Assembly: GCA_029204225.1 (NCBI GenBank)
Contig: CM055098.1
Coordinates: 574,501-638,500, forward strand
Direction of reading: 5' to 3'
DNA length: 64,000 nucleotides
Origin: Diphasiastrum complanatum
Taxonomy: Eukaryota > Streptophyta > Lycopodiopsida > Lycopodiales > Lycopodiaceae
Within the stretch, counting starts at the first letter, position 1. Each line of letters starts with the position of its first letter. The notes beneath the pieces were generated by a model that saw nothing but the letters and a program-made list of their open reading frames with translations, was not told the DNA's origin and ran no database searches. The position numbers and the translations under genes are program-made. Positions 7,121 through 64,000 of this stretch are shown piece by piece.

Positions 7121-7157
<37 letters not shown>

Positions 7158-10100
7158 ACTCACACCCACTCACACACAAAAAGCCCAAACACACCACACA
7201 ATGCAAATCTCTCTCTCTCTCTCTCTCTCGTTGCATTGATGATTCGGGAGATGTCAGACTTGTGGATGACAAGACTGGACATAACCGCCCCCCCCTTGAT
7301 ATAGCAGCCAGCTGAGCATGAGGGAGTGCCTATCCTGCTGGAGACAGAGACAGGATGTAACCTTGAGCAATGACTTTGATGGAGAGGCTGAGATTCCAGA
7401 TGCTTCCAAATACAAACGACAAAGATAGTGTCGACGCCCAAAGGGACAGCTAGTTCCTAGGCCATAGTGTATAGCTCCATGGCAGCAGAGACAACATTGA
7501 CAGTCCACTCGGAGACAGAGGTCCACGACACACTCTACGATAGTTTCACAACATACTATATGTCATTTTTTCCAAATTGATGGGCATTTATTATCCATGG
7601 CCGATGGACTTTGACTGTGCCAACCATCTCATTATAAGTAGTTTGAGCATTACATATGTTCACATTGTTACCCCTAATGTTGTCATATAGGGTTAATTAG
7701 GATTATTGGGCCATGCCTGCATGCTAATTCTAGGGGCCTTTACCTATATTTAGTAAATTCAAGCTAGAATTTAGTTAGACTCAAGTTCAAAATTCTATTG
7801 CTTGATTTGGAGCACAAGTTTTGCTATAGATAGGTGTTGGTACTTTTACCATATATAGGGACATTATTTAGGCAATTGCTTTTAGATTGCTTTTGCTTTT
7901 GGCATAGACCAAAGGCTATAAGTATGTAGTGCGCCCTAGCTCATTTGCAATGGGACATAGTTGGAGTTTCTCTTCACTTGTGTTCTTTGTCATGTGTTTG
8001 GCTATTGTTTTATCACAATAGGAATCTTGTCTTGGGTTACTTGTATGAACAAGTCGGTTTTCTAACGGAGGGTTCACATGATTAAATCCAGTCGTTTATA
8101 TATCAAGCTTATGTTCAACATGTCTGCTTTAGGGGTTAACCTAGGCTACCGCAAGACACCTGAAGCTAGATGTGGCTGATTTTCTCATGCTACCACCTTA
8201 CCTAGCCTCTGCTTATCTGATAGCTTTTGAATTGTATGGGGATAGTCAAGGGTCTGTTCACATGTGAGGTGGGGAGTTTTTAGGGATACCTCAAGAGGAT
8301 AGGATGTACCAGATGTGTACATGGGAGGCACAGAGTTGGAAGAGCATTTGATCTTCCACTATCTTCTCTATTATGAGTTTCATTCTAGATACTGCTACCT
8401 CTTTCAAGATCTAGTTACGTTGCACTCGTTGATATCATATGAAGACCAAAGATGTGTAGCCTTGATGACCGAGGAAATGTTTCATTTGAAGAGTGCCACA
8501 TGCCACACCCCCTGACATACGATCGTGATTTGCTCACTCCTCCAAATGCCGCTCACATGTTGAATTTGAGTGATTCTGAGGAGACAAAGTGTGACGAACC
8601 CCAAAGATCAAGCTTGGAAGAACACTTGAAAGGAGGAGCCAAACCACCCAACCAAGTAGAAGCCAAAGATCAGTCCACAACAACTTTGCTCCCAAGTCGT
8701 AGTATGTGAATACGAGAAGAGAGAGAGAAAAGACAAGAATTTGAAGAATCCCAATGTGTAGGAAAGTGAGTTTCTACCAGTGGATATAGCGTATGGTAGT
8801 TTGTGCATGATGATGTGCAACTCCCCATTCAGTCTAGTCTCACTCCACAACCAACTAATAGTCATTCTGCATGCATGCGACCGTCACATACCATGTGCAG
8901 CTCCACATGTCACGATATGAGTGCCTGGAGCCTCACAAGGTTATTAATTACATAGCTAGCCTTGACTGGAATATCGAGGCATAACTAGCCTTGACTGGAT
9001 TATCGAGGCGTAACAAATAAACTTGACTCTATAGGGCCTATATACCCATGTCAAGGATTATTTTGAATCTTTGTAACTAGACATGGACATAATATTCTTC
9101 CCCCCTTGACCTACTGCTGTCCTTCGAAGTGGAAATTAGGGAAGTTCTTCTTTATGCTTTCAACTGCATCCCAAGAAGTATTATCCTTAATCTGACTTTT
9201 TCATTTAATTAAGCACTCAGAGAGAGAATGGTTTTCTAACTATTTATCTCCGACTTTGAGTGCTTACCTCAAATTCTTAAGGTACACTAAACGTGAATCC
9301 TCTGATTGGGTTTGATCCTCTCCAAGCGAAAGGCATCACCCACATGTAAACTCAATTCTCATTGATTCAGATGAAACACTAGGTGAATCGTCACCTCACC
9401 TTAGAGATCAAGTCCAAACCTTTGCGTTTTTCATTTGTCAACATTTGTTTGCACCTATGGTTATATTTATCTGATGGGTATTGTGTTCGTTGTATCTTTG
9501 AAATGAAGCCTGTTTAGACATTGTTTAATCATAACTTAGATTGCCTTATTCTCCTGGAGATCAGAGAAGTGCAAAAACATACTGAAAGTTAGCTATTGAA
9601 CCTTCTGAACACTGGAAAATCCCCTCACAATAGAAACATTTGCTGTGATTTGAAGAATATACATCAAAATCCGGGAACTCAGTCGAAACACATTCTTATT
9701 TGTTCTGATAGATATCTATTCTCTTTTTTCAGCCAGGTCGCTTTCATGATGACCAGTTTTTATGGCAAAGACATGAAACTATGCACAAATTTATTCACGA
9801 GTCTCCTGCTGCACAGATTGCTAGACGAATGATGAGGTGATTATCTATTCTTATCTCAGCTGCAGTTTGTCATCACATAGACCCCTCATATAGCTGGCCA
9901 GTGCATCTAATTTAAACTCATGCCACCCTTTGGCTGGTAAACTTGCAAACTGATCCTTGCCTTTTGTGTTTTGGAACAGAGGAAAGCATGTAAGACTCTT
10001 TTATGATCAGTTATTTGTGAAGGAACCTGGCACTCTTTCAGTAACTCCTTGGCATAATGATCATTCATACTGGCAACTAAAGGGCGAGCAAATCATTTCC

Positions 10101-26199: not shown

Positions 26200-27082
26200 G
26201 AGCCTACGTGGTGTATCCCAAAGAAGGAATGACCATGTAGGAGCTAGTAACATTTCCTTGAATAGTTGTAATAAATGTAGACCCCCCTTAAAATAGTAAG
26301 AGTGAGCCACCTTTTGATGGTGACCTCTAGTGGAAGGGCAAATTCCACATGTAATTTCTATTTTAGTGGAAATGCCACATGGGCTCCACATGGGCAGCCT
26401 TCTTGCTTATTTAAGGCCCCCCCTCTCTTGTGAGGGAGCTTTTGATTGTATTTTCAAGTTCTCTTGAGCTAATAAAGAGGATCCTCCACGAGTTCTTGAA
26501 GATCACTAAGCTCTTTGTTCATGGAAATGATCGTGAGTGATATTTCTATGATGCTTGATTCCTTGCTTGTGAATTAACTAGATTTTTGTTTCTTGTTCTT
26601 GCTTAGTTGTGGATTAGCTTCAATTCTTGCTTGTGGAATCTTGTAAAAATCAGCATTCAAGTAAACTATAGAGGCTAGAAATGTGGTGTAAACTCTTGCA
26701 TAGTCTTGACATTCTAGTTTTTGATGTTCTTGGATAATTTAGGCATCAAGTAATGTATGTTTCTTGGTTCCTAGATTGTTAAATGCCGTTAGAAATCTTG
26801 TTTCTTGTTTCTTGAATCTGGTTTTGGTTTCAGTAGCTATTCTAGTTCTTGATTGTTCGTTGATTCAATAGTTAGTAGTAGGATTGCTCTCTATGATGAA
26901 TGCTGATCTGTTTGAGTTGTAGATGGTTGCATGACTAGTGTATGCATGTAGCTGAGTATCGGATTTGAGTTACCCACTGACAGACTGGGAAATACGTTAT
27001 GCATTCTTGAATATTGCTTCTGCTCTGTAAACGTTCTAATAAGAAGAATAATTACAAAGAACCATAACGACAAAGGTAATCC
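26200..27082 (+). repeat. Left LTR-like copy of a small LTR element
   Basis: Bases 26464-27082 are about 95% identical by eye to 27794-28413. Upstream (26200-26463), present only in this copy, is a U3-like stretch with a TATA-like ttatttaagg at about 26406, followed by 'ttttgattgtattttcaag' and the aataaag where the shared part begins. The left border is not determined. Confidence 0.6.
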
Positions 27083-27793
27083 AAGACAGGTAAGCAACAA
27101 GAAGAGAAAAACGTGTTCACAGATTCAGTGAATAAGTGAACATTTGGCGCCGTTCCATAGCTACATACACGCTCAACCAAGCCATATCTCAATCTCCTGT
27201 GTTGCGACACCATCGTCTGAGAGCTCCTACACATTCATTGACGAGCTCATCCCTTCGGTCTGGACCGAAGTCCTGCTCGTTTCTCAATCGGAGTCTTACG
27301 ATCCTCACCACGACGAGCTCCACAATCTCAACCAGAGCCGGACCACTACCTCATACCTCTCGACCGAACGAAACCGTCATATCTCAACTGAACCCTTCAG
27401 TCAAAAAAAAAAAAAAATTCACCCGGAGTGCTCAGTAAAAACTCGATCGGAGCACTGCCATCAATTCTCAACCAGAGTGCTCCGTAAAAAAACTCAACCC
27501 GAGTACTGCCATCACATCTCAACCGGAGTGTTCAGTCCAATCTCGACCGAAGCACTCTGCTCAGATCTCGACCGCAACACTTCTGTCAGCTCTCGACAGA
27601 AGCATTCCGCTCACATCTCAACCAAAGAACTCTCCTCCGATCTCGACCGGAACACTCTGCTCAGATATCGACCGGAGCACTTTTCTCAAATCTCAATTGG
27701 AGCACTCTGCTCACATCTCAACCGGAACACTGATGTAAAAGCTATCAAGTGCATATTCCTAGGATATGATGATCGCGTGAAGGGCTATAGATG
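27083..27793 (+). mobile_element. Interior of a short non-autonomous LTR element
   Basis: Between the two repeats are 711 bp. At 27141 lies atttggcgccgtt, resembling the TGGCGCC-type primer site of some plant LTR elements. A 25-bp minisatellite occupies 27385-27735. The last codons read KAIKCIFLGYDDRVKGYR, the conserved end of the copia integrase region. The 217-aa frame across this segment mostly encodes the minisatellite and I do not consider it a gene. The element lacks Gag and almost all Pol. Confidence 0.55.
27385..27735 (+). repeat. 25-bp minisatellite, about 13 diverged copies
   Basis: Consensus atctcgaccggagcactctgctcag, 25 bp; the last eight copies (from about 27538) are in perfect register. 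Earlier copies are shortened or interrupted by A-runs. Because 25 is not a multiple of three, the reading frame rotates from copy to copy. Confidence 0.85.
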
Positions 27794-28413
27794 TTGAGCT
27801 AATAAAGAGGATCCTCCACGAATTCTTGAAGATCACTAAGCTCCTTGTTCATGGCAATGATCTTGAGTGATATTTCTATGAGCATGCTTGATTCCTTGCT
27901 TGTGAAATAACTAGATTTTTGTTTCTTGTTCTTGCTTAGTTGTGGATTAGCTTCAATTCTTGCTTGTGGAATCTTGTAGAAATCAGCATTCAAGTAAACT
28001 ATAGAGGCTAGAAATGTGGTGTAAATCTTGCATAGTCTTGACATTCTAGTTCTTGATGTTCTTGGATAATTTAGGCATCAAGTAATGTATGTTTCTTGAT
28101 TCTTAGATTGTTAAATGCCGTTAGGAATCTTGTTTCTTGTTTCTTGAATCTGGTTTTGGTTTCAGTAGCTATTCTAGTTCTTGATTGTTCTTTGATTCAA
28201 TAGTTAGTAGTAGGATTGCTCTCTATGCTGAATGCTGATCTGTTTGAGCTGTAGATGGTTGCATGGCTAGTATATGCATGTAGCTGAGTATCGGATTTGA
28301 GTTACCCACTGACAGGCTGGGAAATACGTTATGCATTCTTGAATATTGCTTCTGCTCTGTAAACGTTCTAATAAGAAGAATAATTACAAAGAACCATAAT
28401 GACAGAGGTAATC
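27794..28413 (+). repeat. Right LTR-like copy lacking a U3 region
   Basis: Matches 26464-27082 from ttgagctaataaagagg to ggtaatcc. It starts directly after the integrase-end codons, with no U3-like sequence before it, so the two 'LTRs' are unequal. Confidence 0.7.
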
Positions 28414-28439
28414 CTAATGTGAGAATGTCCTAATGTGTG

Positions 28440-29219: not shown

Positions 29220-30004
29220 ACCAACAATCACCTTGTTAGTAGAAGGAATGTAAACCTTGTAGGCTTTACCCACCTCACTATATCCAACAAATATACCTTT
29301 CCTTGAAGATGGATCCTCCTTGTTGACATAGCATGTGCATCCAAAAGTTTTAAGAAAGTTGACATTCAGCCTCCTCTTGAATAACATCCAAAAGGTGTCC
29401 TTCCATCCAAAATAGCACTCGGCCACCTGTTGCACAAGAAATTAGCACACAACAAAGCTTGATCCCAAAATGGCTTATCAAGGTTAGCACTTAATCTCAT
29501 GGCTTTGGCATTTTCACATAAAGTCCTATTCTTCCTCTTGGCCACTCCATTTTGTTGTGGGGTCCTTGGTGTTGTATACTCCCTCTTGATCTCATGCTCA
29601 TCACGACAGGCCTTGAACTTGGTAGATATGTACTCTCCACTATTGTCACTTCTCAAGCACTTGATCCTTGTAAAAAATTGGCTCTCCCTTACATTCTTGA
29701 ACTTGACAAAGACATCATACACTTCATCTTTGCTCTTTAGTAGATAGATCCAACAAAATCTACTAAAATCATCATTGAAAGTTACATACATCATAGCTCC
29801 ACTATTGTTAATTGTAGTAATTACATGAATATCCAAATTTACAATTTGAAAAGACTTTGTAGATCTAGTATAAGGTAGTCTATGTGACTTTGACAAAGCA
29901 CAAGACTCACAAACATGATTGATACTTTTTAAGGAACTTGGGAGACCTATCACAGCTTGCTTTCTAGCCATTATTTCCAATGACTTAAAGTTGAGGTGCC
30001 CCAT
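29220..30004 (-). pseudogene. Ty1/copia integrase
   Basis: The minus frame starts MGHLNFKSLEIMARKQ, continues with the CX2C part of the zinc domain (HVCESCALSKSHRLP), then the core. Catalytic positions are the first Asp in NLDIHV, the second in CLRSDNSGEY, and NGVAKRKNRTL where the third block normally has Glu. That Glu is replaced by Lys. After a frame shift near 29.4 kb the region ends with VNFLKTFGCTCYV and KGIFVGYSEVGKAYKVY. RT and RNase H are missing, so the element is truncated at about 29.22 kb. Confidence 0.85.
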
Positions 30005-30143
30005 CCTTTTATGCCAAACTTCTTGAATAGGTATTTTCTCTTTTGCAACACATCCAACTTGTTAGCAATAACACAAGCATCTAGTTTGAATCACAACTTT
30101 CATTGCCTTTTACCTTTTGCAATCAAGATATCCTTCTTTTTGA

Positions 30144-34920: not shown

Positions 34921-35047
34921 GCCGTTTTTTTTTTAAATTTTTCCCTCCAGCTGCAGAATTTTTTGTTGCAAATTTTTTTCGATGCCTTCGTGAAAATTTT
35001 GCTATGGCAACCTTTGCAAAAATTTTGCACGCGATAAGGTGGAAGAA

Positions 35048-36123
35048 ATTACGGCTGCTACGGATGCGGCGAAGGACACAGAATTGAAAAATGTCCCTAC
35101 AAGGGACAATATACATCCTGCGGTTATGGACACTATTTCAAGAATTGTCCATTTAAACCTGGAACCAGTGCACCTCTTAACTTCAATGCAATACAACAAC
35201 CAGTAGTTCCAGCAGGGATGCCATCGGAAGGACGACAATTCCACACTCTTATCTTAGCTATTACGCGAACACAAAAGAAGAAGAAAGTGGCTCCCTCACC
35301 ACCACCATCGGTCACTGACGACCAATCCTCAACTTCCGCGCCATATCCGAATGTGAGGGAAGAAAGAAGACAGTACCAAAAAATAAGACACTGGGTACAA
35401 AAAGCACAAGCGGAGGAAAAAGATCAAGAAATAGACAATCCCACAGAACCTCCAGTTGGCGTCGAACCGCAAGCGGGCTCACCACTGTGCACTGATCAGA
35501 ATGATCGGTTGCACCAACATGAACCACCTTTTCACATGGTGGAGCCCAAGGAACTACGCACTGAATGGCTCACACTTTTATTGTCAAGCCATGTTAGTTT
35601 ACCACTCGGAGAACTACTGCGGATTGCACCACAAGCGAAAAGCCTTCTAGCTGAATGGGCCAAAGCCGATGAGGAGCCAATAGCGTCTGAGCCCATATAC
35701 TGTACGAGCTATGAAGAAACAAGTAACGTCCTCCACATCGGAGCAGCATGGGTAAGTGAGGAACACAACATCACTTTACCAATCAAACACAAGAGATACG
35801 AGGTCGAGGCACCAATGGTAGATGGAGGATCGAATGTCAATTTGATCTCCACTACTTTGTATGAAAAATGGGATTTTCAAGGGTTGAAGCCAGCAAGATT
35901 CGCCATCAAGCTAGCAGATCAATCCTGTGTGAAACCAAAAGGTGTAGTTGCCGATATCCCCGTAAAGATAGCAGACATGCAGTTTGTGATTACTTTTGTA
36001 GTCATGGATATACCCGAATCTCCATCTGCATACCGTGTTTTACTGGGAAGACCATGGTTGAGGACTGCGCAAGTAGTACACAACTGGGGTATGAGAAAAC
36101 TCACCTTCGAAAACAGAGAATAG
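35048..36123 (+). pseudogene. Ty3/gypsy gag C-terminus and protease
   Basis: From 35048 the frame reads a zinc knuckle, YGCYGCGEGHRIEKCPYKGQ, then a second imperfect knuckle, SCGYGHYFKNCPF. After a variable linker (basic KKKKV, acidic stretch) comes the aspartic protease: EAPMVDGGSNVNLIS at the active site (DGG where most have DTG/DSG), ADIPVKIADMQFVITFVVMD and a flap-end block YRVLLGRPWL. The frame stops at TAG 36121-36123. The 5' half of gag and the 5' LTR are absent: sequence left of 35.0 kb is unrelated. Confidence 0.85.
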
Positions 36124-36928
36124 GCTGTAAAGGTTGATCCAACTACATGGGCGGTGAAACCTATTGCACCCAAAGCTGATGACGGATCATCTATGACAGG
36201 ATTGATCGCCCAAGGCCAGCCAAGGGAGTCACTATGATTCAAAGACGGATGTCGTAAGATGGATGGATGCGTTAGCAACTATTGACTGCCGGACATGTCA
36301 ATATGAATCAGATTCGGAACCCAGTACATCTTCACCCAAGTGTTACACTATGGACACACCATCACATTTGGGGTGAATATGATACACGTAGCATTGTTGT
36401 CAGCGGAGCCTATTGAGAACCCAGTGGACGATGATCTAGTCCCTTGGAAACATGCTCTAACTTGTAATAAGGAGATTGAACTGACTGATGAACAGCTCCT
36501 ACACCACATGGACCCAAATCGTTATGGAACCAAGAAAGTACCAGCTCAACCACTGCAAAATTCTGCTATGGCGAAAATCTCAAGGATCGATCCACCCAAG
36601 CCACCTGTGAATAAGAAGAATCAGTTGAAGCAATGCTACAACTAGGTGATCCGATGGAGTAATCTACCCGAAGAAGCGATAGCTACAATGGATGTTGATA
36701 TTCGCAACCACGAGGCGAATGTCATGGCAGTCTCGATGAAAGATAACAAGGATGAACCCACCAAATGACAAAATGGGCAAAAAGAAGGTGTTAGACTCCT
36801 TGAAGTCAATAAAGATAGACTCATATACAATGTCATCTTCTACACAGGTGACAGAAAATCAAAAAATGACCAGTCGGGCTAAGATCAATATGCTGAAGAA
36901 GGAATCTTGACGAGCACCAGTTCACGAG
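36124..36928 (+). pseudogene. Ty3/gypsy protease-RT linker remnant
   Basis: In-frame fragments such as 36340-36645 (VALLSAEPIENPVDDDLVPW) and a short frame around 36660-36770 form the poorly conserved linker between protease and reverse transcriptase. Several stops interrupt it. I see no separate gene. Confidence 0.55.
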
Positions 36929-37615
36929 ATGCCTGAGACTTTCAAGAATTATACCTTGGACGACGTGGTAATCATGACGCCGCAAGCCCAGAGAGAACTT
37001 GATCAAAGTCAGGCACCAGCGGAACAAGTCTTTGAGGGACCTGCGCGAACACAGCCGATGAATCTTGCTGAGCCAGGTGAAGAAGAAAAGATAGTGCATG
37101 TGGGAGAGCAGTTAACACCCACACAGTTCAAGAGACTACGATCATTGTTGGTGGAGTATAAAGACTGTTTTGCCTGGAGTTATAGTTACCTGAAGGGCAT
37201 TCCACCAACAGTAGTCCAACACACCATACCCTTGGTGGACGGAGCAGTTTCCAAGGTAAGCCATTATTATCGCTGCAACCCGAATTATACTGAGCTAATC
37301 AAGCAAGAGTTGTAGAAGTTGATCGATGCAAATTTCATCTATGAAATCAAGCACACGGAATGGGTATCACCGATAGTTATAGTACCCAAGAAGAATGACA
37401 AAATGCGGATTTGTGTCAATCTGAAGGCGCTAAATGCAGTCACCAAAAAGGATCATTTTTCTCTACCATTTATGGAAAGTGTCCTTGACAGAGTAGCTGG
37501 CGTCGAAGCCTGCAATTTTCTAGATGGCTTCAGCGGCTACAACCAGGTGAAGATAGCCCCCCAGGACCAGCACAAGACAACATTAGAAAGCCCTAAAGGC
37601 TTTTCAGAAGCTTAA
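36929..37615 (+). pseudogene. Ty3/gypsy reverse transcriptase with catalytic core deleted
   Basis: The frame reads DCFAWSYSYLKGIPPTVVQH, a TAG at 37315, then IKHTEWVSPIVIVPKKNDKM, RICVNLKALNAVTKKDHFSL and FLDGFSGYNQVKIAPQDQHK. Immediately after HKTT the sequence jumps to SPKGFSEA, the start of the connection/RNase H region. The part that should carry the YxDD box (roughly 100 codons) is therefore deleted. It lies between protease and RNase H of one element, all on +. Confidence 0.9.
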
Positions 37616-38057
37616 GGATGCATTGGTTTCAGCACCAATATTATGCCCACCCAATTGGTCTATTGAGTTTCACGTGCATACGGACGCATCGAAGTATGCA
37701 GTTGGAGCAGTCTTAACCCAGCCAGGTGAACACAAAAAAGATTTTCCAATCCGATTTGCAAGCCGACAGCTCAGTGATACCAAAATGAATTATTCAACCA
37801 TAGAGCGGGAAGCACTGACAATGATCTATGCGGTTAAGAAATTTCGTAACTACCTGATGGCCACACATTTTGCTTTTTATACGGACCATCAACCCTTGCT
37901 CTATCTCGTTAACAAAACCTGCAACACCAGAAGAATCACCAGATGGCTACTTCTGTTGTTGGAGTTTGATTTAGTTCGCAAGGGAAAACAACACTACATG
38001 GCAGATCATGTGTCACAAATAAAGGGAAAGGAGATTGCAACCCCAACCCGACGATGA
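37616..38057 (+). pseudogene. Ty3/gypsy RNase H
   Basis: The frame reads APILCPPNWSIEFHVHTDAS, KYAVGAVLTQPGE, NYSTIEREALTMIYAVKKFR, FAFYTDHQPLLYLVNK and HYMADHVSQI. These are the catalytic Asp (TDAS), Glu (EREA) and Asp (YTDH) blocks, plus the ADxLSR-like end with Val-Ser-Gln instead of Leu-Ser-Arg. The domain is essentially complete. Confidence 0.9.
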
Positions 38058-38775
38058 GCTGGTAGATGCTATCTTATTTTACGTGGACACAGTACCAGAA
38101 TGGGCTGTCGACATTGTTGAATATTTAATGCGGGGCCAACCAAACAAATCACTACCAAAGGTGAAACAACGAAAACTGATCTTGAAGGCTAGACCTTATC
38201 AACTGATAGTCGGCCAGTTGTATCGAAGAGGACCAGACGGAATTCTTTGGCGGTGTATTCTTCTTCATGAGGCCACCCAGATTATTTTGCTTTCACATGA
38301 AGGCATGGGTGAATGCCATTTTGCATCCGACATTACAGTTCGCAAGATCCTGCAATCAGGATGTTGGTGGCCAACGATTCATAAGGATATAGAGAAATAT
38401 AAGTGCGATGTGTGCCAAAGGGCGAGAAGGCCAACGAGATTGAATTATGACCTACTGCACCCGGTCTTAGCCCAAGCACCATTCGAAAAGTGGGGATTGG
38501 ATTACATCGGTCCAATTCACCCTACAGCAAGGAGTTCCCATGTTCGATACATAATCGTAGCCACAGACTACCTCACCAAGTGGGTCGAAGCCAAGGCAAT
38601 AAGAGTAGCTGAGGCTAGAACCACTACCAAGTTCCTTTATGAAAATATCATTGTGCGCTTTGGATGCCCGGTAGAGCTAGTCAGCGATCGCAGAAGTCAT
38701 TTCATCAATGAGACCATCAAGGTCTTGTTGGAGGAATTCTTCGTGATCCACAGAACCAGTATCCATCATGGATAA
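38035..38775 (+). pseudogene. Ty3/gypsy integrase, truncated
   Basis: The HHCC zinc domain is present (HEGMGECHFASDITVRKILQ...CDVCQRARR). The core keeps the first catalytic Asp (KWGLDYIGPIHP, Asp of LDYIG) and the second (ELVSDRRSHFI). The frame then ends at HRTSIHHG plus TAA, before the catalytic Glu. The C-terminal third and any chromodomain are lost. Sequence from 38776 to 38900 keeps a short pol-like frame but is not clearly part of it. Domain wording resembles the non-chromovirus (Tat/Athila-like) plant lineage, which is an inference. Confidence 0.9.
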
Positions 38776-38905: not shown

Positions 38906-39578
38906 TTGGGGGAATTCTCAACAAACTGTAAATAAATAAAATCGTCCAATAAAATGTATTGCAAGGGCATGGCATCCTGCGCGTATAAGCCCATGGACCA
39001 ATGAGCACCCAAGCCAAAGTGTAAATAAAATAAAATAGACTTGGGCCTTTGTAATTAAAATAAAACTTGAGGCCCAAAGTCAATTTTAAACTTAGAGTTT
39101 ACTTTTTAAAGTTGGGTCCAATTTTGGACTCACATGAATCTTGTGATTTCCAATGTACTTTTTGTGGACCCTTGGATCAAGTTGGGTCCAAGATGAATGG
39201 ATAGGATCAATGTGAATATTAGCCCATAGGATTGAGGGGCAAGGGCCTTCTCCATTTTATTAAAAGGCATCATTTGTACACTATTTGCATGCTTAATAGA
39301 GAGGAGGAGACTCTACTATTTTGAGAGCTCAAGCATCCTCATTTGCTAATCAATCTTGCTGCTATTGTTGTGTTTGCTTGTTATTTCCATTTCTTCCATG
39401 CTTTTTGTTTGTGATTAGTTAAGGTTTCTTCATAAGCAATGACATTGAGCATTTGAGCTAACCTCCATCTCATCTCTCTCTCTCTCTCTCTTTCTCTCTT
39501 CTCTTCTTTCTTACTCTTCTTGTCTATCCTTTCCCTTCACCCAAAAGCATGATGAATGTTAGTGTAGAGGAGTAGAGT
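38906..39578 (+). repeat. LTR-like segment, same family as 50.30-50.99 kb
   Basis: It begins TGTTGGGGGAATTC after the gypsy remnant and shares with 50.3-50.7 kb the stretches 'ggcatcctg.g.gtataagcc', 'ccaatgagcac', 'aggcccaaagtcaa' and 'actcacatgaatc.tgtga', ending in CT-rich sequence. It may be the 3' LTR of the gypsy element or of another element. Its right part is cut at the start of the 39.58-45.79 kb element. Confidence 0.6.
39470..39500. repeat. (CT)n tract in LTR-like segment
   Basis: Short CT run followed by pyrimidine-rich sequence, matching the CT-rich part of the related LTR at 50.73-50.93 kb. Confidence 0.8.
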
Positions 39579-39591
39579 TAACATGATGACA

Positions 39592-40371
39592 AAAAAAAAG
39601 AGAAATAACTTGAAGACCCATTTTTTTTGAATTTATTAAATTTTTTAAAAAAGTATCCAAATTTAAAATACTTCAAATAAATATATTGTAATGGTAAAAA
39701 AATGTTGTATTTTGCAAGAAAATAATTTAAGCTACAAAAATTTGGTCAATAGATTTTTATAAATAGCTTAAAATTAGCTTATATTAAATAATAATACTAT
39801 TTAAAATAAAATCATTAGATACACAACCACTAATATACCTAAAAAATATTTTTTGCTTACTAAAAACAAAAGTTATAGTTTTTTTTTTTTAGAATTTTAA
39901 AAGTTTTCTAAATTACAATTCTTGTATCAAAAAAAATATTTTTAAAATTATGTTAAAAATTTAAATCAATATTTTTTAAAATTTTAAAATTTTAAAAATC
40001 TTTACTACACCCACGTAAGTTTATTTGATATTTAGACATTAAATAAACGCAAATAAAACTACTTTACAATAATCAAGATTAAATTATTTGTGATAATATT
40101 TAAATCACCCTGAAAAAAATCTAATTTTTTTTCAATTCTTATGATTTTTAACAATATTTCTTTTACAAAAAATATTATAAAAACACATCTAAAATTAAAA
40201 TATTGTAAACTTGACAAATCATTACAATTTTAATTTTTGGTAATAATTATCAATGTTAAAGTTTTTAAAATATTTCAGATTTATAATTTTAAATCATTAA
40301 AAAATAAATTAAAAAATATTAAATCAATAAAAAAAAATTCAAACACAATACATCAAAAAATATAAATACAA
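39592..40371. other. AT-rich non-coding left flank of the element
   Basis: Very AT-rich, with many A and T runs and no open frame of note. It lies 3' of the methyltransferase-like gene and probably contains its untranslated end. Confidence 0.5.
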
Positions 40372-41531
40372 TTATTCTTTAAAATAAAAGAGAATTTTGT
40401 ATTCCCAAAAATCATCGATGTCATTTACACCTTTTTCTTTTGTTTTTTCTTGAGTAGTCACTATACTATCAAGTGTCACCTCTTCTACAATTTCCTCGAC
40501 TACAGTTACTACATTGTAATCTTGAACCAAGACATCAGCAAATTCTCCTGTGTCGTCTACTTTTTCGCTAGCAGGAGGCTGAGGTTCCTTGGACAAGAGA
40601 ATTATTGTATCCTCGCTGTCCAAACTCTTTCCCACCTCAGATAATTCATTTGGCAAAATTGAAAGAGATTTCATTCTCATTTTTATAAAATCAACTAAAT
40701 TAGTATCTAAATCTACTGCAGCAACATGTCTACCTTTTGGAACAGCACATGCGCTTGTAGTGGCGCTACCGCTAAATAAATCTAAAACCCAATCAACTGG
40801 GTGAGAAAAAATATCAATCAAATGATTAATTAGTTGTTGTGGCTTTTGGTAGAGACAAGTCATAGAATCCGTCATTGGATTTTTTAATTTCTTTGTCACA
40901 GTTGGATATTGGAACAAGTTTCCAAAACTTGTCAGTCCGGAAGTGTTATAATACAACATCGAGTGTTTGTCATCCAAAAAATAATAACCGATGGTTATGT
41001 ATTCTATTTCATTGCAAAGTCGAGCTCCTCCCGAGTTCTTGACATTGGGCTTGTACCTGACATGGAACATTACAAGTAAAATCAATTTAGAATTTTAATT
41101 TAAAATAAAAAATTTAAAATAAAATTATGAATTAAAATATGAATTGATAATTCAGGAACTTAAAAACTTACCACACAACATTCTCAGGTCCCGCATTACA
41201 AAAAGTTAGTAGAGCTTTCTGTACTGATGCTGACTGCCAAAAAGAATGAAAAATAACAACTCTCTAAATTGGAGAAGTTGTGACTTCAAGAAGGCCCTGC
41301 ATAAAACTATGGATTTTAATGAATTTGAAAGGAGTATCATCATTTAATGATTCCTTCATCTAAAATCCATATGATATATCAGCGATGCAGAGTGTATAAG
41401 GTCTTTTTCTTAAAATCTTTGAAATTTATCTGCAATCGCCCTCCTCAACCTTTTGAACTCCGTAATGAATAGACCTAATCTTTTCCCTCAGCAATAGCAG
41501 CTAAAACCATTTTTAAACATTGCTTCATGCT
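40372..41531 (-). pseudogene. Beta-class N6-adenine/N4-cytosine DNA methyltransferase-like (N6_N4_Mtase family)
   Basis: Exons 41531-41173 and 41057-40372 are joined by an intron with gtaagt/cag borders that restores VVWYKPNVKNSGGARLCNEI. The order is a catalytic (D/N)PPY-like site read as CIADISYGF, then the variable part, then CLYQKPQQLINHLIDIF (motif X), then VLDLFSGSATTSACA (motif I, SAM binding), then HVAAVDLDTNLVDF. Catalytic site before SAM site is the beta-class order of bacterial CcrM/MboII-type enzymes, which methylate adenine N6 or cytosine N4. An acidic, valine-rich tail follows to a natural stop. Lesions: stops after ISYGF and TSPI, one near 41430, and at least one frameshift; ISY replaces PPY. 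It is dead now but was spliced like a eukaryotic gene. Confidence 0.75.
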
Positions 41532-41669
41532 CTGGACAGAATAAAAAATCAAGTTTCAAATATAATGACTAAAAGCTTACATCTAAAAGTTTAAATAATT
41601 TTATATCTAATAACAACGATGCTAAGCATGAAACAAACATGATTAAAAATATATTTCATAATTACTCAC

Positions 41670-42046
41670 CAAAGCAACTAGAGCTTTATCAAAATAGGCT
41701 TTTATGGCCTCGTCCTGACAAAGTCGGATCTTTATCATAGTCTCGTTCAGAATAAAAATAGAACGAGACTTATCTGTCTCCTTTACAAGTATATTCACAA
41801 AACCTTCTTCTTGATTCTCATCTGGTTGATCACCAAGCAATCTTCCTTGAACTTTGAATTGCGAGTCTCCTTTGCTAGGCTTCTCAGCTAAATGAATAAA
41901 AAGCTCCGAAAGCTTTGTGTTGTTGACCCCTTTGGTGAAATAGTACATGAATTTTTTCTTATCTTTTAACAGAATATCTTGAGGTTTTCCCGAAATTTTA
42001 AAAGAAATCCTCGACATTTCAAAAATTATCAAAGACAATTGAAAAT
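41670..42046 (-). pseudogene. Upstream exon of the methyltransferase-like gene
   Basis: The minus frame runs from acceptor tttttttgcag (42047) to donor gtgagt (41669), reading LSLIIFEMSRISFKISGKPQ, YYFTKGVNNTKLSELFIHLA and DEAIKAYFDKALVAL. It joins in phase to SMKQCLKMVLAAIAEGKD at 41531. I recognise no domain in it. It would be the N-terminal region, perhaps for target recognition or protein contact. It is uninterrupted over 125 codons, unlike the downstream exon. Confidence 0.5.
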
Positions 42047-42250
42047 CTGCAAAAAAAAAAAAAGACTTTTTAGGAAAATTTAAAACGCTATCTTAATAAA
42101 AATGCTGAAAACTTTAATAACAAGCTATTTTTGTGATTTTTTTTTTTTAAAAACAAAACTACAAATTCAACATATTTTCTTACTAAAATATCTCAAAAGG
42201 ATCACTTTTCTGAGACAAAGCGTTGTAAAACAAGAAAATACGAGTAGCGA

Positions 42251-42756
42251 CCTATGCTAAGCATAGGTTGTGGTCGAGTCCTTACTAACAACTTATGCTT
42301 AGCATAGGACGGAGGCGGGATTCTTCAATTCTAACCTCCTTTTGACCTATGCTAAGCATAGCTTTAATCTCTGGTCATGTTCCAACCTATGCTCAACATA
42401 GGTTAGCAAGCAAATTGCGAAGACATCCTATACTCAGCATAGGTCGTTACTCGCGCGCTCTTGTCCAACCTATGCTGAGCATAAGATGTCTTCACTATTT
42501 GCTTGCTAACCTATGCTAAGCATAGGTTGGAAGAGGAATCCTATGCCGAGCATAGGATATGCTAAGCCGGAATCCTATGCTGAGCATAGGATATTACTAA
42601 GGACCCGAGCACAACCTATGCTCACCATAGGTTAAAGGAGAGGACTTGTGCAGGCACCTATGCTGAGCATAGGTTACCCATGTTGCAAGAAAATGAATAC
42701 AAATTAAAATATGAATATTTTCTAATGCAAGAATTTATTACCCATGCTAAGCATAG
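42251..42756. promoter_or_regulatory. Array of 17-bp palindromes, CCTATGCT-N-AGCATAGG
   Basis: Copies start at 42251, 42292, 42346, 42386, 42427, 42469, 42510, 42540, 42574, 42615, 42657 and 42741, with a degenerate one near 42557. The arms are conserved while the centre base is A, T, C or G. Most start-to-start distances are 40-42 bp (the last is 84). Spacers differ in sequence but mirror each other: 'gttagcaagcaaat' at 42403 returns inverted near 42509, and 'ttgtggtcgagtcctta' at 42268 returns inverted near 42614. The whole array is thus an imperfect palindrome centred near 42455. It lies between two divergent genes, so it probably binds a dimeric protein encoded by the element. Confidence 0.85.
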
Positions 42757-42785
42757 AGCAAAGGTAGAAAATGACAATAATCTTA

Positions 42786-42890
42786 CCGTTAAGAAATCTA
42801 GAAGCAAGAACGTATGTGAAATCTTATAAAAAGACGTGACTTGGTCGTAGCGATTGCTCTGGCAGTACGTGGGCTTCTGAATTCGCAAAT
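42786..42890 (-). other. Possible leader exon of the methyltransferase-like gene
   Basis: The minus strand has a good donor, cttaacg/gtaagatt, at about 42786. A transcript starting to its right would place the palindrome array inside the first intron. This is an inference from the splice site only. Confidence 0.3.
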
Positions 42891-43027
42891 GAGGTGAGTT
42901 ATGTTTGGACTATGGTCCTTAAATAAATTTTTTTTCGAGACCCCCGTCTCACGCTAGTCCTCCAGCTTACTTCGGGACCAAGTTGCCGCAACTCACCTCA
43001 CCCCACGCCGACCTCGAGTATTAGCCC

Positions 43028-43081
43028 GGACAGTCCAAACCTAACCCTAACTCTAGCTTTAAACCTAACCCTAGCCCTAAG
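43028..43081. repeat. Degenerate telomere-like CCCTAA repeats
   Basis: aaacctaaccctaactctag, then aaacctaaccctagccctaa: about seven imperfect CCCTAA/CCTAA units in the divergent control region. Confidence 0.6.
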
Positions 43082-43289
43082 AATGCTGCCAAACAATATT
43101 TAAGACATGGTAGCCGCCAAATTTTTTATTAACCAGTTATTTTTTAGGCTTGTTGCTCATTTGCATTTAGTTGGTTTTTCTGTGTGCGTCTATTGAGGTT
43201 CGCATAGATTTTTATTTGTTTTATGACCAGCATAGGTTGTAGTTATGTTTGAGGAGCACATTTAGTGTGGTGTTAACTATTTGAATGGT

Positions 43290-43306
43290 TCTATGCTTAG
43301 CATAAG
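43290..43306. promoter_or_regulatory. Outlying copy of the element palindrome
   Basis: tctatgcttagcataag matches the 17-bp palindrome with two or three changes and lies right before the rightward open frame. A half-site (agcatagg) lies at about 43230. Confidence 0.55.
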
Positions 43307-44565
43307 TACATAGTTAAATTTTTTTTTGAGGTTACGATATCAAGTAGTTCTACCTCTTCTATTCCAGTAGTTGTAACACTATATGTTGCAACAAGTGCAA
43401 CATCTTCATCTGACATTCTCAATGAAAACTTTTTTTATAAAGCCACTCCTGAATCTGAACATATTTTGGTAAACGATGTGGCATCGTCATCATTTACCCA
43501 TTCATCATTTGAAATTTCTCAAGCAAGTACTTTTCAGGAAATGACGCCTGTAACTCAGCTTGTATCAAATCTTTCGACCTCGTCCTCCTCTTCAAATACA
43601 GGCTCGGCACAACTAGAACATTGTTCTTTTGAACAAGTTGAATCATTGAGTGATGAGTCAAAAGCTTCAATTCACTCGGTTACTGATTCTAGTAAATCAA
43701 CAGATCTACGTAAGTCTGTTGATCCGCGACGTTCAAGCTTTTCTCATGTTCGTAGAAAACCTTTTCAAGGGTTGGAGCCAGAATTTTCAGTCATGAAATT
43801 CCAACACCTTCTCAACCAGTTCAAGCACCTACTAGTGTCACAGGTTCAATTTATAGATCAGACTCCAAACAAAAAGAAAAATACAAGAGAGACTTGAGAT
43901 CCTCACCCGATTTAACGAATCGTCAAAAATAGTTGATTACAAAATTTGAGATTCGAAAGGTACGAAATATTATTTGCTGCTCATCCTGTTGTTTGCAAAA
44001 GCTGAGTATCAGAGAAATTGAAGAATTAAGATCAAACTTCTTTTTACGAAGTAAGGATGAGAGAAATTACTATTTGTGTGCAACAGTGAGGCCGGACAAA
44101 AATTCATATTCGTATTTTTTAAATGCTTTGGAGGTTTGTCGCAAAGCTTACAAAGTAGTTCACACAATCGAAAACTCACACTTCAACAAATGCGTGCACG
44201 ACTTCAGAAAGACCCAACATCATGGGGATCCTTACAAGGTCGAACTGTTTCTCCAGATGCTTTAAATTCAACTGCTTGGCAAAAGCATTTCATAGATGTG
44301 CATGGAGAAAAATTGCCTAATTTCTTATATTTTCACTTGTCGGATAATTTTACAAAATTAGAAATATTTTTTATGTACAAAGAGTTTGCAAAAACAAAAA
44401 ATGTTCCCTATTTGAGTTACTCATATTTTCTTAGAATTTGAGAAAGAGATTTTGGACTGGTAAAATTCTCAAAAAATCACGAATGATAGTATGCTCCACT
44501 TGCGAGTTGTTAAAGTCTGCAAAACAACTTGCAAAGACCAATGATGAGAAAAGTAAATATTAATC
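43300..44565 (+). pseudogene. Transposase-like protein with DUF7869-type N-terminal motif order, decayed
   Basis: The open frame from about 43300 gives a Ser/Thr-rich low-complexity N-terminus to about 43790. After a frameshift and a TAG (43929) it continues IRKVRNIICCSSCCLQKLSI, REIEELRSNFFLRSKDERNY, LEVCRKAYKVVHTIENSHF, frame change, ALNSTAWQKHFIDVHGEKLP, YLSYSYFLRI, stop, ERDFGLVKFSKNHE, frame change, and the zinc-like CSTCELLKSAKQLAK. The order (Cys-rich start, VCR.A...H.I, A..WL..F....GE.LP, S.F...W...F..V, F.KC..C) matches the region before the DUF7869 core in transposon-like proteins of plants and animals, as I recall the family. At least three frameshifts and two stops show decay. Confidence 0.55.
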
Positions 44566-44670
44566 AAATTTGTCATTCATTTTAATACTTTCTGTTTTAA
44601 AAAAATTTATGTTGCAGTCTTTTTGAACACCATTATGGTATGATCTTTATTTTATTAAATAAGTGAATTA

Positions 44671-45484
44671 TTGTATTTTCAGTGGATGTTGGAACAAAAA
44701 CTGAGTTTGCTCAATCTCGAACATACATCAACAACTGATGAATTTCATTGGCCTCATAAATTAGGAACATCAACTACAACTGTCGAACCTTCAAATCTTC
44801 CTCGAGATAATGATTTCCTGCACTTGTGCAAGGTGAGGAACGTGAAATTTATGTGGGCTCAAGAAAGAATAGGCAAAGTGTAAAAGTTGCAAAAATGAAA
44901 TGGCGCAGTGATTTGAATGAAATCCCAATTGGAAGCCTTGTTGCACTTCTAGCTTTAGAAAACAATGAAGGACATCCATTTTGGATTGTCAAAGTACTTG
45001 GTTTTATTCAAAATAGCAATCAAACAAAAGTACTACGTGTCCATTGGTTGCGCACAACTTCAACGAATGCTTTTTTGGGAAGGTACAAACTCGAAATGTT
45101 GCAAGTAGATCAAAAGAGCAAGAGAAAGCGATTGTCAAAAAATCAACCAAGAGTCGACGATTTGAATCTACAAGATGTAGATGTTTTGGCATTTAATTTT
45201 AAATTAACAATGACCAATCATCTAGGAAAGTCAACAATATCTATATTGAAAGAACGACTTAGATTACTTGAAAAACCATCATCCTCCACTCGTCATCAAC
45301 AGAGAAAAGCTGATTTACAAGGTTTTTTGTGAACATTAGACACGGATTCTGAGGAAGACATGCCAGTTGACTCTGATGAAGAAGACGAGTCTTCCACTTC
45401 ATCAGCTGAAAACGAGAGTGCTGAGAATATGTCAAGTTCTGAATTGAGAGGCATCAGTGAAAATTCCTTAGAAAATGTACCTTA
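44671..45484 (+). pseudogene. C-terminal part of the transposase-like gene
   Basis: After probable loss of the central core, 44671-44825 and, in a shifted frame, 44826-45334 read KVAKMKWRSDLNEIPIGSLV and GHPFWIVKVLGFIQNSNQTK, then KVLRVHWLRTT. This V.G..VA...PFW..KV......VHW pattern is a small beta-barrel (chromo/BAH-like) region often found at the end of DUF7869-type proteins. An in-frame TGA at 45332-45334 is followed by an acidic tail (DTDSEEDMPVDSDEEDESS) to TAA at 45484, so the TGA is probably a late mutation. Confidence 0.5.
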
Positions 45485-45977
45485 AAAAAAGAATGTGCAA
45501 ATATAATAAAAGTTATTTTGTATTTCAATGGGATTTCGAGTTTCAAAAATCATTTGTTCTCTTGAATTATTATTTCTTTTGTAATTATGATGGTTTTATG
45601 AAGTTTGCAACAAAAAACTTGTAGTTCTTTATTTAAAATATGCATTTTTTGGCTTTATTTTAAAACAAAATTTAGAGATTTATTTAAAAAATCTATGATT
45701 TTGGCCTAAAACTAGGACCATTAAGAAACACCAAAAAAGATTACTCTTTTTCAGGTCAAAATCCCAAAACAAATGTCATCGTGTTAGTTAAAGGAGGGTA
45801 GTGTTAGTGGTGAATAGAGTTAAGGGAGAAAATAGGAAACTAACTAAAAATAGCATCTATGCATAGTTAGGTACCTATCCAGTGATCTAACCCTTGTTGA
45901 CAGGCAAGAGGGCTATACTACGCGAGATCTTCGACCCTACAAAGATATATATATATCAAGACTCTTTTATCCAACTT

Positions 45978-46903
45978 TCAATGATATAACTTTGGATCCT
46001 GCATGTGTTGACTTAGCTTATGAACACAAAAGCTTAGATCAGGCCTAGTAGCTGTTAACCAAATAAGAGAGCCAATAAGACTCCTATAAAGAGTGATGTC
46101 CACAAAGGATTTTTCATCATCTTTCATAGGAACTTTTACAGTGTGCTCCATAGGTTTATCTATGCCTTTACAGTTTTCCATAGGAAATTTCTTGAGCATG
46201 GAAAGTGCATATCTATTTTGACTTATAAATACATGACCTTTCCAAAAATCTATTTCAAGGCCTAGAATATAGTGAAGAACTCCTAAGTCCCGCATCTTAA
46301 ACTCAGTACCAAGTGCATACTTAGTTTCTTCAACTAGCTTCTCATTATTTCCACAAAGAATGATATCATCTACATAGATGAAAAGAATAACTACAAAGTT
46401 ATCTACAAACTTATAATACAGTGAAGGTTCATATTCACTTAGACAAAATTCGAGTGATATGAGATAAGAGTTGATCCTTGCATACCAAGACCTTGGTGCC
46501 TGTTTCAGTCCATACAAACTTTTGAACAAAAGACAAACTTTTGATTCATCACCTTTCTTCACAAAACCTGGAGGTTGTTCCATGTAAATATCCTCCTCAA
46601 GGTCACCATTGAGAAACACATTAGAAACATCAAGCTGGAACATACTCCATTTGTGAAAACATACAAGAGATATGAGTATTCGAATTGTTACCATCTTTGC
46701 AACTGATGCAAAGGTGTCTTCATAGTCAAGACCTTTGATCTGTGAGTAGCCTTTGGCACAAAGTCTTGCTTTATACTTATTGGTAGATCCATCATGATTA
46801 TACTTGATAATACCCACTTACATCCAATCACATGCATGTTTTTTGGTGGCTCCACAAGCTCCCATGTGTTGTTTGACATCAAGGCTTCAAACTCTTGGGT
46901 CAT
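45978..46903 (-). pseudogene. Ty1/copia reverse transcriptase
   Basis: From 46903 the minus frames read NTWELVEPP (RT entry) and, after a frame change, NKYKARLCAKGYSQIKGLDY, FQLDVSNVFLNGDLEEDIYM, LYGLKQAPRSWY, the catalytic LFIYVDDIILCG and LGVLHYILGLEI. It then stops at HMQDPKLYH, where RT normally runs into RNase H. RNase H and the 3' LTR are missing. Most of the RT is intact in one frame of 279 codons. Confidence 0.9.
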
Positions 46904-47074
46904 TGTTTCAACCCACTCCTTGGATTGAAGAGCTTCTTGGACATCTTTAGGCTCTTCATCTGATATGAAGAGAGCATGATAGGAAGTTTCACCTTCAACT
47001 TGCCTTCCTTCTTCATCATATGTGAGCCTCCTTGGCTCAGATCTTGCTCTTGTAGGTCTTCTGAGTGTGGTAGC

Positions 47075-47903
47075 TTAAAATTTCTCCTCCTCAAGCCTCG
47101 GCCTCACCTCTTCTTGAGCAGCATCAAGATTGATGATTGTAGATCTTGCATGAGTCTCCTTGATCTGTGCATCATCCAAGTTAAATTTCTGATCTTCATG
47201 GAAGATCACATCTCTACTAACAACATTCTTGTCAGTAGAGGGTAAATAAACTTTGTATGTTTTTTTGGTAGATGCATATCCTACAAAAATACCTTTTACA
47301 GCACTAGAATCTTCATTCTTCCTAGTTTTCAGAGGCACATGCACAAAGCATACACAGCCAAAAATCCTAAGATGATCTACCTTAGGCTTTTTCTTATACA
47401 ACATCTCAAATGGTGTCTTTCCTCCTATTGCAAGATTTGGAAGCCTATTACAAAGATAGTTTTCACATGCAATTGCCTCTCCCCAAAATTCTCTAGGCAG
47501 AGAAGCTTCTAGCCTAATGGCTTTTGCACACAACAACTCCATTTTACTGAGGAGTATATGAACAAGAAGACTCTCTTTGAATACCCTCTCTCTCACAAAA
47601 GTCTTTAAACTTATTGGAGGTGTATTCTCCTCCACTATCACTTCTCAAAGCTTTCAACTTGAAAGGAAACTGCTTTTCTACATAAGCTTTGAAAGTAAGA
47701 AAAACATCATAGACCATGGCTTTAGAAGATAGCATATAGATCCAAGAATATCTTGTATAATCATCTACAAAAGAGACAAAGCAATTTGCTCCTCCTTTGC
47801 TCTTAGTTGATGAGAAATGAACATTAGAGTGCACAAGTTCAAATGGTTGCTTTGTCTTGATACTTGATCTAAGAAAAGGCCTTCTGTGTGATTTTGCCAT
47901 CAC
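47075..47903 (-). pseudogene. Ty1/copia integrase
   Basis: The minus frame at 47903-47544 carries the core start (KTKQPFELVHSNVHFSSTKS, with Asn where the first Asp is expected) and the second Asp in ALRSDSGGEYTSNKF. The frame at 47641-47075 continues ENTPPISLKTFVRERVF (out of register), then FWGEAIACENYLCNRLP, HLRIFGCVCFVHVPLKTRKN and GIFVGYASTKKTYKVYLPS. Frameshifts are present around the third catalytic residue. The order is right for the element running leftward. Confidence 0.85.
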
Positions 47904-48460
47904 ACAAGCTTCACCTCCTTTGACAATGGCTTTGGTAGACTAACAACTTTTTCTCCCTTGACCATAGATTGCATGGCTTTGAAATTGGGATGTCCCAATC
48001 TCTTATGCCATAGATCCTCCCGAAGAACCTTGGTCTCATAAGCAATATTTGAAATGTTAGCACTCTCCCTAGAATCTAGTTTGTACAACTTACCAATTCC
48101 AGATCCTCTAGCAATAACTTCATTTTGTCTTGAGATTATACATTTGTCAACTTGAAACTTGACGTCCAATCCACTATCAAACAACTGTCCTACACTAATG
48201 AGATTCTTAGTCAATCTAGATACATACAATACATCATGTAAGCAAAAAGATTTTGATGATGATGCATGCAGTGGAATACTACCTACCCCTTCAATCCTGC
48301 AATCTACATCATTACCAGTATAGATTGATCTTTTTGCACCTAAATAAGACATGAGATTAGTGAAAGAGTTTCTAGAACTAGACATATGGGAACTAGCCCC
48401 ACTATATATCCACCAGACTTCTTCATTCTTAAAAGGAAAAGATGAAAAAGTAGACATCAT
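47904..48460 (-). pseudogene. Ty1/copia protease and integrase zinc region
   Basis: The minus frame shows WWIYSGASSHMSSSRNSFTN. This is the protease active site, but with Tyr in place of the catalytic Asp (family DSGAS). It then reads SFCLHDVLYVSRLTKNLISV and LWHKRLGHPNFKAMQSM (first His residues of the integrase zinc domain). The protease is therefore catalytically dead. Confidence 0.85.
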
Positions 48461-49356
48461 TAATGAATTCTCTCTTTCACTCTCAACACCCTCACACTCA
48501 TCCTCATTAGTAAGGTTAGCTTGCTTAGATTGGTTCTTCTTCTTGAAACAATTTGATGCATAGTGTCATTTCTTGCCACAGAAAAAACACTTGATCTTTG
48601 ACAGCTTCTTCTTGCCACTAGATGTTGCAACTTGTGAGGACTAATCCTCACCACCTTCTTTGGCTTTGTCCTTCTTGAAGTGTTGTCGTCCTTTGCCCTT
48701 GCCTCTTGACTTGTCTCTGATGAAAAGTGCTTTGTCATCTCCACCATCTTTCAATGAAAGTCTGTTGATCCTCAACATCTTGTTCTCTTGCCTACTTTCT
48801 TCAGCAATGAGAACACCTTGCAGTGTCTCTAAGGATGGAAGTTCCTCCCTAATAGCATAAGTCTACACAATATTGTCATACTCATCTCTAAGTCCATTAA
48901 GGACTACTTAACAAGTTCAGTGTTCTTAAGAGCATCTCCAATATCAGCTAACTCTTGATGAAGATCTTTTACTCTCAATACATATGATGAAGCACTCTCA
49001 TCTACTCTCTGATAACTTAGAAAGATTTGGTTTCTAAGTGTAAGCAATCTAAAAGTATTCTTGATTTCATAGATTGTCTTTAGAGTATCCCAAGCTTCAT
49101 TGGCAGTGGTGCATGTACTGATCTCTCTTAACACCTCATTGGTTACATTCATTTTTATGAAATGAAAGGCAATTCTGGTTCTTTTATGAAATGTTGCAGC
49201 TTCATTAGGTGTTGCAGGTTCTTCTTCAGCTCCACTCACAATGTCCATTACATCCTATAGAATCAATAATTATTCCACTCTAATCTTCCACATTGCATAA
49301 TTGTAAGATGTTAATCTCACACTATGCTCCAAGAAATGTGAACCAGAGGAAGACAT
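48461..49356 (-). pseudogene. Ty1/copia gag
   Basis: The ATG at 49356 opens MSSSGSHFLEHSVRLTSYNY and AMWKIRVE, then a stop. The frame resumes as MDIVSGAEEEPATPNEAATF, KMNVTNEVLREISTCTTAN, EAWDTLKTIYE and FLSYQRVDESASSYVLRVKD (UBN2-type Gag). The C-terminal region with the knuckle is frame-shifted (minus-strand KCFFCGKK at about 48580). It is the 5' coding end of the element, with its primer site at 50111-50122. Confidence 0.8.

Positions 49357-62275: not shown

Positions 62276-64000
<1,725 letters not shown>

Follow-up and report, generated by a model that had tools for sequence, protein, structure and literature searches.

We analysed a 64,000-nucleotide stretch of the Diphasiastrum complanatum genome (GenBank assembly GCA_029204225.1, contig CM055098.1, positions 574,501 to 638,500 of the forward strand), referred to here as the window. 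Two divergent genes and the palindromes between them, located at 39580–45785, form one mobile unit, a high-copy two-gene DNA transposon. The sequence in the window is likely to be a dead, internally deleted class II copy, probably of the Sola superfamily, of an approximately 9.1-kb form in which one gene encodes a DUF7869 protein, the putative transposase, and the other a beta-class amino-DNA-methyltransferase (MTase) that was maintained by selection and may methylate the element itself.

Ends of the element and target-site duplications

A first-pass annotation of the window had pointed to a 13-bp inverted repeat with one mismatch at 39579 and 45774, and this repeat is present as listed. Between the two 2-kb flanks, inverted 13-bp pairs with no more than one mismatch number 9, compared with a mean of 8.8 in 100 shuffles. 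The inverted repeat on its own is thus at chance level and was rejected as stand-alone evidence, and the case therefore rests on independent copies.

Two-ended copies were recovered from 5 of the 20 fetched stretches described below (L009, L012, L018, L022, and L023) and from 7 of 10 further end pairs; in the other three, one end was not found (C17, C16 at 25.6 Mb, and C16 at 6.7 Mb). L018 and C1667 were left out as repeats of the L012 and C2351 insertions, giving 11 independent copies with the window included; the MTase–transposase pairs at C3616, C578, and C10 were not part of the end analysis. All 11 copies have the same ends, with 0–2 mismatches to an 11-bp core. The 4-bp target-site duplication (TSD) is exact in eight of them (AGTT in the window, TATT, AGTT, GGAA, GATT, GCTA, TAAC, and TAAA), has one mismatch in two and two mismatches in one, and left and right 4-mers paired across different copies matched in 2 of 110 cases.

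Because 4-bp duplications occur at the ends of independent copies, comparison of ends and TSDs sets the exact extent of the element in the window at 39580–45785. The left terminal inverted repeat (TIR), AACATGATGACA, lies at 39580..39591 (+) and is a terminus common to other copies, and the right TIR (TGTCATCGTGTT) lies at 45774..45785 (−); the element is flanked by AGTT at 39576..39579 and the identical AGTT at 45786..45789. The first-pass expectation of a shared terminus with a target duplication was therefore borne out, the duplication being 4 bp long, and the 13-bp repeat was shortened: the TIR comprises 12 bp, with the 13th base pair forming part of the TSD AGTT. A TA duplication with an 11-bp repeat, as read from the window alone, was rejected since the other copies show 4 bp.

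Copies in the genome and the shared layout

The genome searched comprises 1.74 Gb in 5176 contigs. A 25-nt right-end pattern, allowing up to two mismatches, occurs 369 + 393 = 762 times genome-wide, some of these ends possibly sitting on duplicate contigs, and the reversed control occurs 0 times. In the same genome, the 240-aa MTase open reading frame (ORF) has at least 152 matches (150 of 3490 candidates scored), the ORF for the C-terminal part of the transposase protein at least 150 (150 scored of 3347 candidates), and DUF7869 at least 150 (of 2953 candidates). No DUF7869 match was found in 14 control genomes.

Twenty stretches of 9.9 kb were fetched around high-scoring MTase matches, and transposase homology was present in seven of them (L009, L012, L018, L019, L021, L022, and L028). 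One of these, L012, is a full-length copy of 9,108 bp running from AACATG to GTGTT, with the divergent layout found in the window; it also carries stop codons. The window copy is collinear with L012, the aligned parts agreeing at 89–93%. L012 and L018 represent the same insertion with the same flanks: contig C17 carries two examples of it, 98.6% identical and separated by about 130 kb, as a segmental duplication.

Among the best 150 matches of each list, 20 MTase–transposase pairs lie within 12 kb, compared with 0.31 expected; 17 are divergent as in the window (which is included), three are oriented otherwise, and three further divergent pairs lie at 12–20 kb. Duplication on small contigs seems to account for some of the pairs (C2351, C1667, and C578; C2093 and C2). 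With DUF7869 matches added, a divergent partner lies within 13 kb of 25 of the 150 listed MTase matches, the window among them; for another 4 of the 150, the only partner within that distance is in another orientation. In the two-ended copies with a duplication that were examined, no border was seen between the two genes. Although two-ended and flanked by an exact duplication, L023 retains only the final transposase-side part (element positions 8620–9108), and is read as a deletion derivative. The first-pass proposal of a single mobile unit, which a failure of the two genes ever to co-occur elsewhere, or a border between them in independent copies, would have contradicted, is upheld because copies with both genes, the same ends, and TSDs recur across the genome.

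The methyltransferase gene

The leftward gene had been described at first pass as beta-class MTase-like, and a profile search agrees: the ORF at 40372..41094 (−), which holds the last MTase exon (target recognition domain side, motifs X and I), matches Pfam N6_N4_Mtase PF01555 with E 1.8e-11 (44.8 bits, profile positions 135–219 of 221). A broken exon region at 41190..41540 (−) contains the motif IV site and stop codons, and an internal deletion has its junction there, near 41449. The first, N-terminal exon at 41670..42017 (−) is an ATG-to-GTGAGT open frame with ends placed by eye and without known domain; it has no Pfam match, and tblastn found its homology in 12 of the 20 fetched copies.

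The exon with motif IV (DIPYGF) lies upstream of motif I (DLFSGSGTT), the order of the beta class. Motif IV reads DISYGF in the window and DIPYGF in 12 of 19 matches, with ADIPYGF in 11 of 19, and motif I reads DLFSGSATT in the window, the commonest form being DLFSGSGTT in 24 of 63 matches. The D at the first position of motif IV presumably gives a weak hint of an adenine rather than a cytosine target. The middle exon resembles ParB by eye only, with no ParB match in Pfam, PHROGs, or PDB sequence searches.

The motif X/I half resembles that of phage and plasmid beta-class MTases, aligning at 23–40% identity (55 matches listed: 15 of 40 and 40 of 119 records); these are partial matches only, and no record reached 80% coverage. 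No ParB fusion was annotated in four plasmid MTase neighbourhoods, and scans of viral contigs with five element pieces found no relative. Single-sequence AlphaFold models of two window pieces had a mean predicted local distance difference test score of 43 and 40, too low for use. Assignment of the MTase as a host gene was rejected, as it is multi-copy with element ends.

The DUF7869 gene and the state of the window copy

The rightward transposase-like gene of the first-pass annotation is present in the window as a remnant at 43301..45485 (+), recognised from reading frames and the L012 alignment, with its DUF7869 core deleted near 44700; the ORF at 44814..45332 (+) encodes the C-terminal part of the transposase protein. 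A profile search for DUF7869 (PF25273) succeeded in the full-length copy L012, where two neighbouring ORFs of the rightward gene score 60.7 and 99.6 bits (cut-off 26), and gave no match in the window pieces. The acidic motifs VIDGMDQ, QLDNTARENKN, and VGHTHDQIDQMFS were each read in six matches, with variants. These conserved motifs may be catalytic, and the DUF7869 protein is the candidate transposase of the element.

Relative to L012, the window copy is a deletion derivative without element positions 1864–3779 and 7054–8024, the second gap taking out nearly all of the DUF7869 core. Its MTase gene is disrupted by a frame change and by stop codons in frame, and has lost its middle part. Because the DUF7869 domain and the middle of the MTase are lost and stop codons are carried, the window copy is dead.

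Tests for selection on the two genes

Selection on the MTase was assessed on the C-terminal exon in 60 copies (61 before dropping those at least 97% identical). The median pairwise ratio of nonsynonymous to synonymous divergence (dN/dS) was 0.78 for pairs with dS of 0.05–0.15, 0.55 for 0.15–0.25, 0.43 for 0.25–0.4, and 0.22 above 0.4, the pairs not being independent. For 11 copies chosen for spread, the 42 MTase pairs with dS above 0.4 had a median of 0.17 (codon bootstrap 0.12–0.23). Variants common to at least three copies comprised 140 synonymous, 197 nonsynonymous, and 9 stop changes, and singletons 81, 298, and 22, respectively; the neutral fractions are 0.278, 0.687, and 0.034. The shared variants deviate from 1:1:1 over codon positions (P 5e-6). 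For the C-terminal piece of the transposase (17 copies; 21 before dropping those at least 97% identical), dN/dS fell from 0.65 to 0.22, with five pairs in the last class. Two divergent copies, L109 (around L082) and L110 (around L087), encode MTases approximately 72–74% identical to that of L012 and share the left end of the element.

In our reading, these patterns suggest that copies decay after insertion and that the moving lineage kept its MTase under purifying selection. Selection on the MTase shows that the enzyme mattered to the element.

Conserved internal palindromes

The palindrome array noted at first pass is found between the two genes: 12 palindromes CCTATGCTNAGCATAGG, with at most two mismatches and spaced mostly 40–42 or 54 bp apart, lie between 42251 and 42757 in an array placed in the shared intergenic region at 42249..42757. 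Two weaker palindromes precede the transposase gene at 43220..43306, one at 43290 (two mismatches) and one at 43220 (four mismatches), and a pair spaced 70 bp apart recurs in other copies. With up to three mismatches allowed, 175 sites of the palindrome CTATGCTNAGCATAG were counted in 21 sequences totalling 203.5 kb, near-duplicates L015 and L018 excluded, compared with 8.7 in base shuffles; the copies are related, so the sites are not independent. The arms carry 1.16–1.95 bits of information, a value raised by the search pattern, and the centre base is unconstrained (0.02 bits). Distances between sites cluster at 40–42, 53–54, 70, and 84 bp, with a phase coherence of 0.65 near 10.5–10.75 bp. 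In six copies, the arms diverged less than the spacers (transitions 0.047 vs 0.063 and transversions 0.025 vs 0.050 per site), ranking 0 of 504 circular shifts in a run omitting L011, which has a misaligned end, and 8 of 630 with L011. The palindromes CTATGCTNAGCATAG are conserved internal sites.

Palindromes in L012 are found at 2056–5569 of 9108, with none near the ends, the expected place for sites of a transposase. A cluster also lies just upstream of the motif IV exon, inside the MTase gene, and the divergent copy L110 has five palindromes there, 45 bp apart. This internal placement in L012, together with the five-site row in L110, speaks for a possible regulatory or marking role rather than for subterminal transposase sites. 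The GCTNAGC core with its free centre base resembles a restriction-modification site. The array at 42375–42537 is itself a large inverted repeat, with 70-nt arms that are 89% complementary and 23 nt apart, and therefore forms a higher-order dyad in the shared intergenic region.

Proposed role of the methyltransferase and alternative explanations

In the proposed mechanism, the two genes are read outward from a shared central region, and the leftward, intron-containing gene is predicted to encode a beta-class amino-DNA-methyltransferase, kept by selection during the spread of the family. The MTase protein would recognise the internal array CTATGCTNAGCATAG and methylate element DNA, and the methylation could either set the activity of the shared promoter region or make element DNA recognisable to its own machinery. 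We advance, as a tentative proposal, that the transposon keeps a self-recognition kit, a site-specific amino-MTase with cognate palindrome arrays, whose mark on element DNA would tune the promoter or tell element from host. The mobile DNA described here seems to come with an enzyme of its own for chemical marking.

Several observations weigh against the overall reading. One of the 11 two-ended copies has no recognisable target duplication, and transposase homology is absent from 13 of the 20 MTase stretches within their 9.9 kb; in these 13, the element match mostly stops or is rearranged before or just past the palindrome array. L109 and L110 show neither transposase homology nor N-terminal or ParB-like MTase exons in the 9.4–9.5 kb fetched. 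The contrast in codon positions is weak for the MTase, where third positions make up 43% of the variants shared between copies and 36% of the singletons (Fisher P 0.052); for the transposase piece, which has too few shared variants for this comparison, it is not significant (P 0.30). The DUF7869 family has no functional annotation. Finally, the best 150 MTase and best 150 DUF7869 matches yield only 12 pairs separated by 25 kb or less. Because of these few combinations, and because the highest-scoring DUF7869 match has no MTase within 25 kb among the matches listed, other DUF7869 transposon families probably exist in the same genome.

The regularity of the arrays bears on an alternative that we regard as a real possibility, though short of a probable one, namely that the palindromes bind the transposase or a host factor and that the MTase works elsewhere, for instance across the whole genome or in countering host silencing. 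Near-helical spacing of the arrays would suit any DNA-binding protein; however, the palindromes have an internal position, with none close to the ends of L012, and they cluster within the MTase gene, upstream of its motif IV exon, as in the row of five in L110. Assignment to a separate superfamily of DUF7869 transposons, which we consider doubtful, would be compatible with a likeness to Sola that is drawn here from structural features, but the 4-bp TSD, short TIR, and size agree with Sola as given in PMC10741241, and PMC12477816 gives Ectocarpus Sola1 the same kind of opposite-strand partner gene.

It is improbable that the MTase gene was captured a single time and has since travelled with the element as an unused passenger. 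Many listed copies contain stops and young pairs have a dN/dS of 0.78, as a passenger would; against this, old pairs are near 0.2, shared variants are enriched in synonymous changes, and L109 and L110 retain the left end of the element at only about 72–74% MTase identity to L012. Two unrelated elements lying side by side, with an inverted repeat arising by chance (8.8 expected in the AT-rich flanks), are hardly credible and were rejected, since independent copies repeatedly show the same ends with exact target duplications, together with both genes.

A two-gene transposon with a selected MTase, as favoured here, bears on a wider question. Amino-methylation (N4-methylcytosine, 4mC; N6-methyladenine, 6mA) is disputed and patchy in eukaryotes, with rotifers and Marchantia having host MTases of bacterial origin. 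A high-copy family with such a gene is a plausible vehicle for the spread of these enzymes in eukaryotic genomes, and the element copies are specific loci at which the mark could be sought. The analysis also places DUF7869, whose function is unknown, in a TIR element with two genes and target duplications, a setting indicative of a transposase.

Neighbouring sequence in the window

Adjacent ORFs at 35038–38775 (+) resemble by eye a degraded Ty3/gypsy-type polyprotein, the first of them having no Pfam match at E 0.001. A Copia-type retrotransposon remnant at 45978–49254 (−) matches RVT_2 (E 2.7e-60), and its reading frame ends approximately 190 bp away from the right terminus of the element. 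Another retrotransposon piece, with GAG-pre-integrase and integrase core domains, lies at 29366–30061 (−). Direct repeats at 26464–27082 and 27794–28414 (622 bp, 96.5% identical) are perhaps a pair of long terminal repeats, and between them are tandem repeats at 27415–27731 and an ORF with a retroviral SH3 match just under the cut-off. A perfect AG dinucleotide run of 49.5 copies occupies 62829–62927.

Comparison with known systems

Transposons carrying a DNA-modification enzyme have a reported precedent in KDZ transposons with TET/JBP genes, said to have been described by Iyer in 2014; these differ from the present element in both transposase and enzyme chemistry. Among the papers listed by the literature searches, which left out most subscription journals, none was seen that describes a transposon of a land plant carrying this type of MTase.

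Sola elements are described in PMC10741241 as having a 4-bp TSD, a DDD transposase, TIRs from 11 bp, and a size of mostly 2–9 kb, and as being present in moss; a Physcomitrella Sola1 is listed in PMC9033089. With its 4-bp TSD, 12-bp TIR, and full length of 9,108 bp, the element probably belongs to the Sola superfamily, an assignment made from these features against the published description and not from the transposase sequence. It differs from plant Sola elements in its MTase, as no methyltransferase is mentioned for them in the consulted passages of PMC10741241 and PMC9033089.

The closest parallel is Sola1-1_Ec32 of the brown alga Ectocarpus, likewise a DNA transposon with an opposite-strand gene containing an N4/N6 DNA methyltransferase domain; according to PMC12477816, it is 21.5 kb long, compared with 9.1 kb here, and encodes a ParB-like + N4/N6 MTase protein of 1104 aa. 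The same paper refers to comparable proteins in green and red algae (Iyer 2011; Petroll 2025) and suggests that such proteins may bind and modify their own transposon sequence. The ParB-like domain is named for Sola1-1_Ec32 and seen by eye only here, whereas the palindromes are a feature of the present element, the word palindrome being absent from the main text on Sola1-1_Ec32 (PMC12477816). The first-pass view of an undescribed transposon class is thus not sustained: because the ends, TSD, and size fit Sola and a brown-algal Sola1 with an MTase gene has already been reported, this is not a new class but probably a Sola-type element whose accessory gene is of a kind already described from algae.

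A red alga is recorded with 66 N6_N4_Mtase genes (PMC12115072). The bdelloid rotifer enzyme N4CMT and the 4mC enzyme of Marchantia, cited in PMC8885841, are likewise N6_N4-type MTases of bacterial origin in a eukaryote. Both are host genes, and the rotifer protein, which contains a chromodomain, places 4mC on transposons (PMC8885841), whereas in D. complanatum the MTase gene is that of the transposon.

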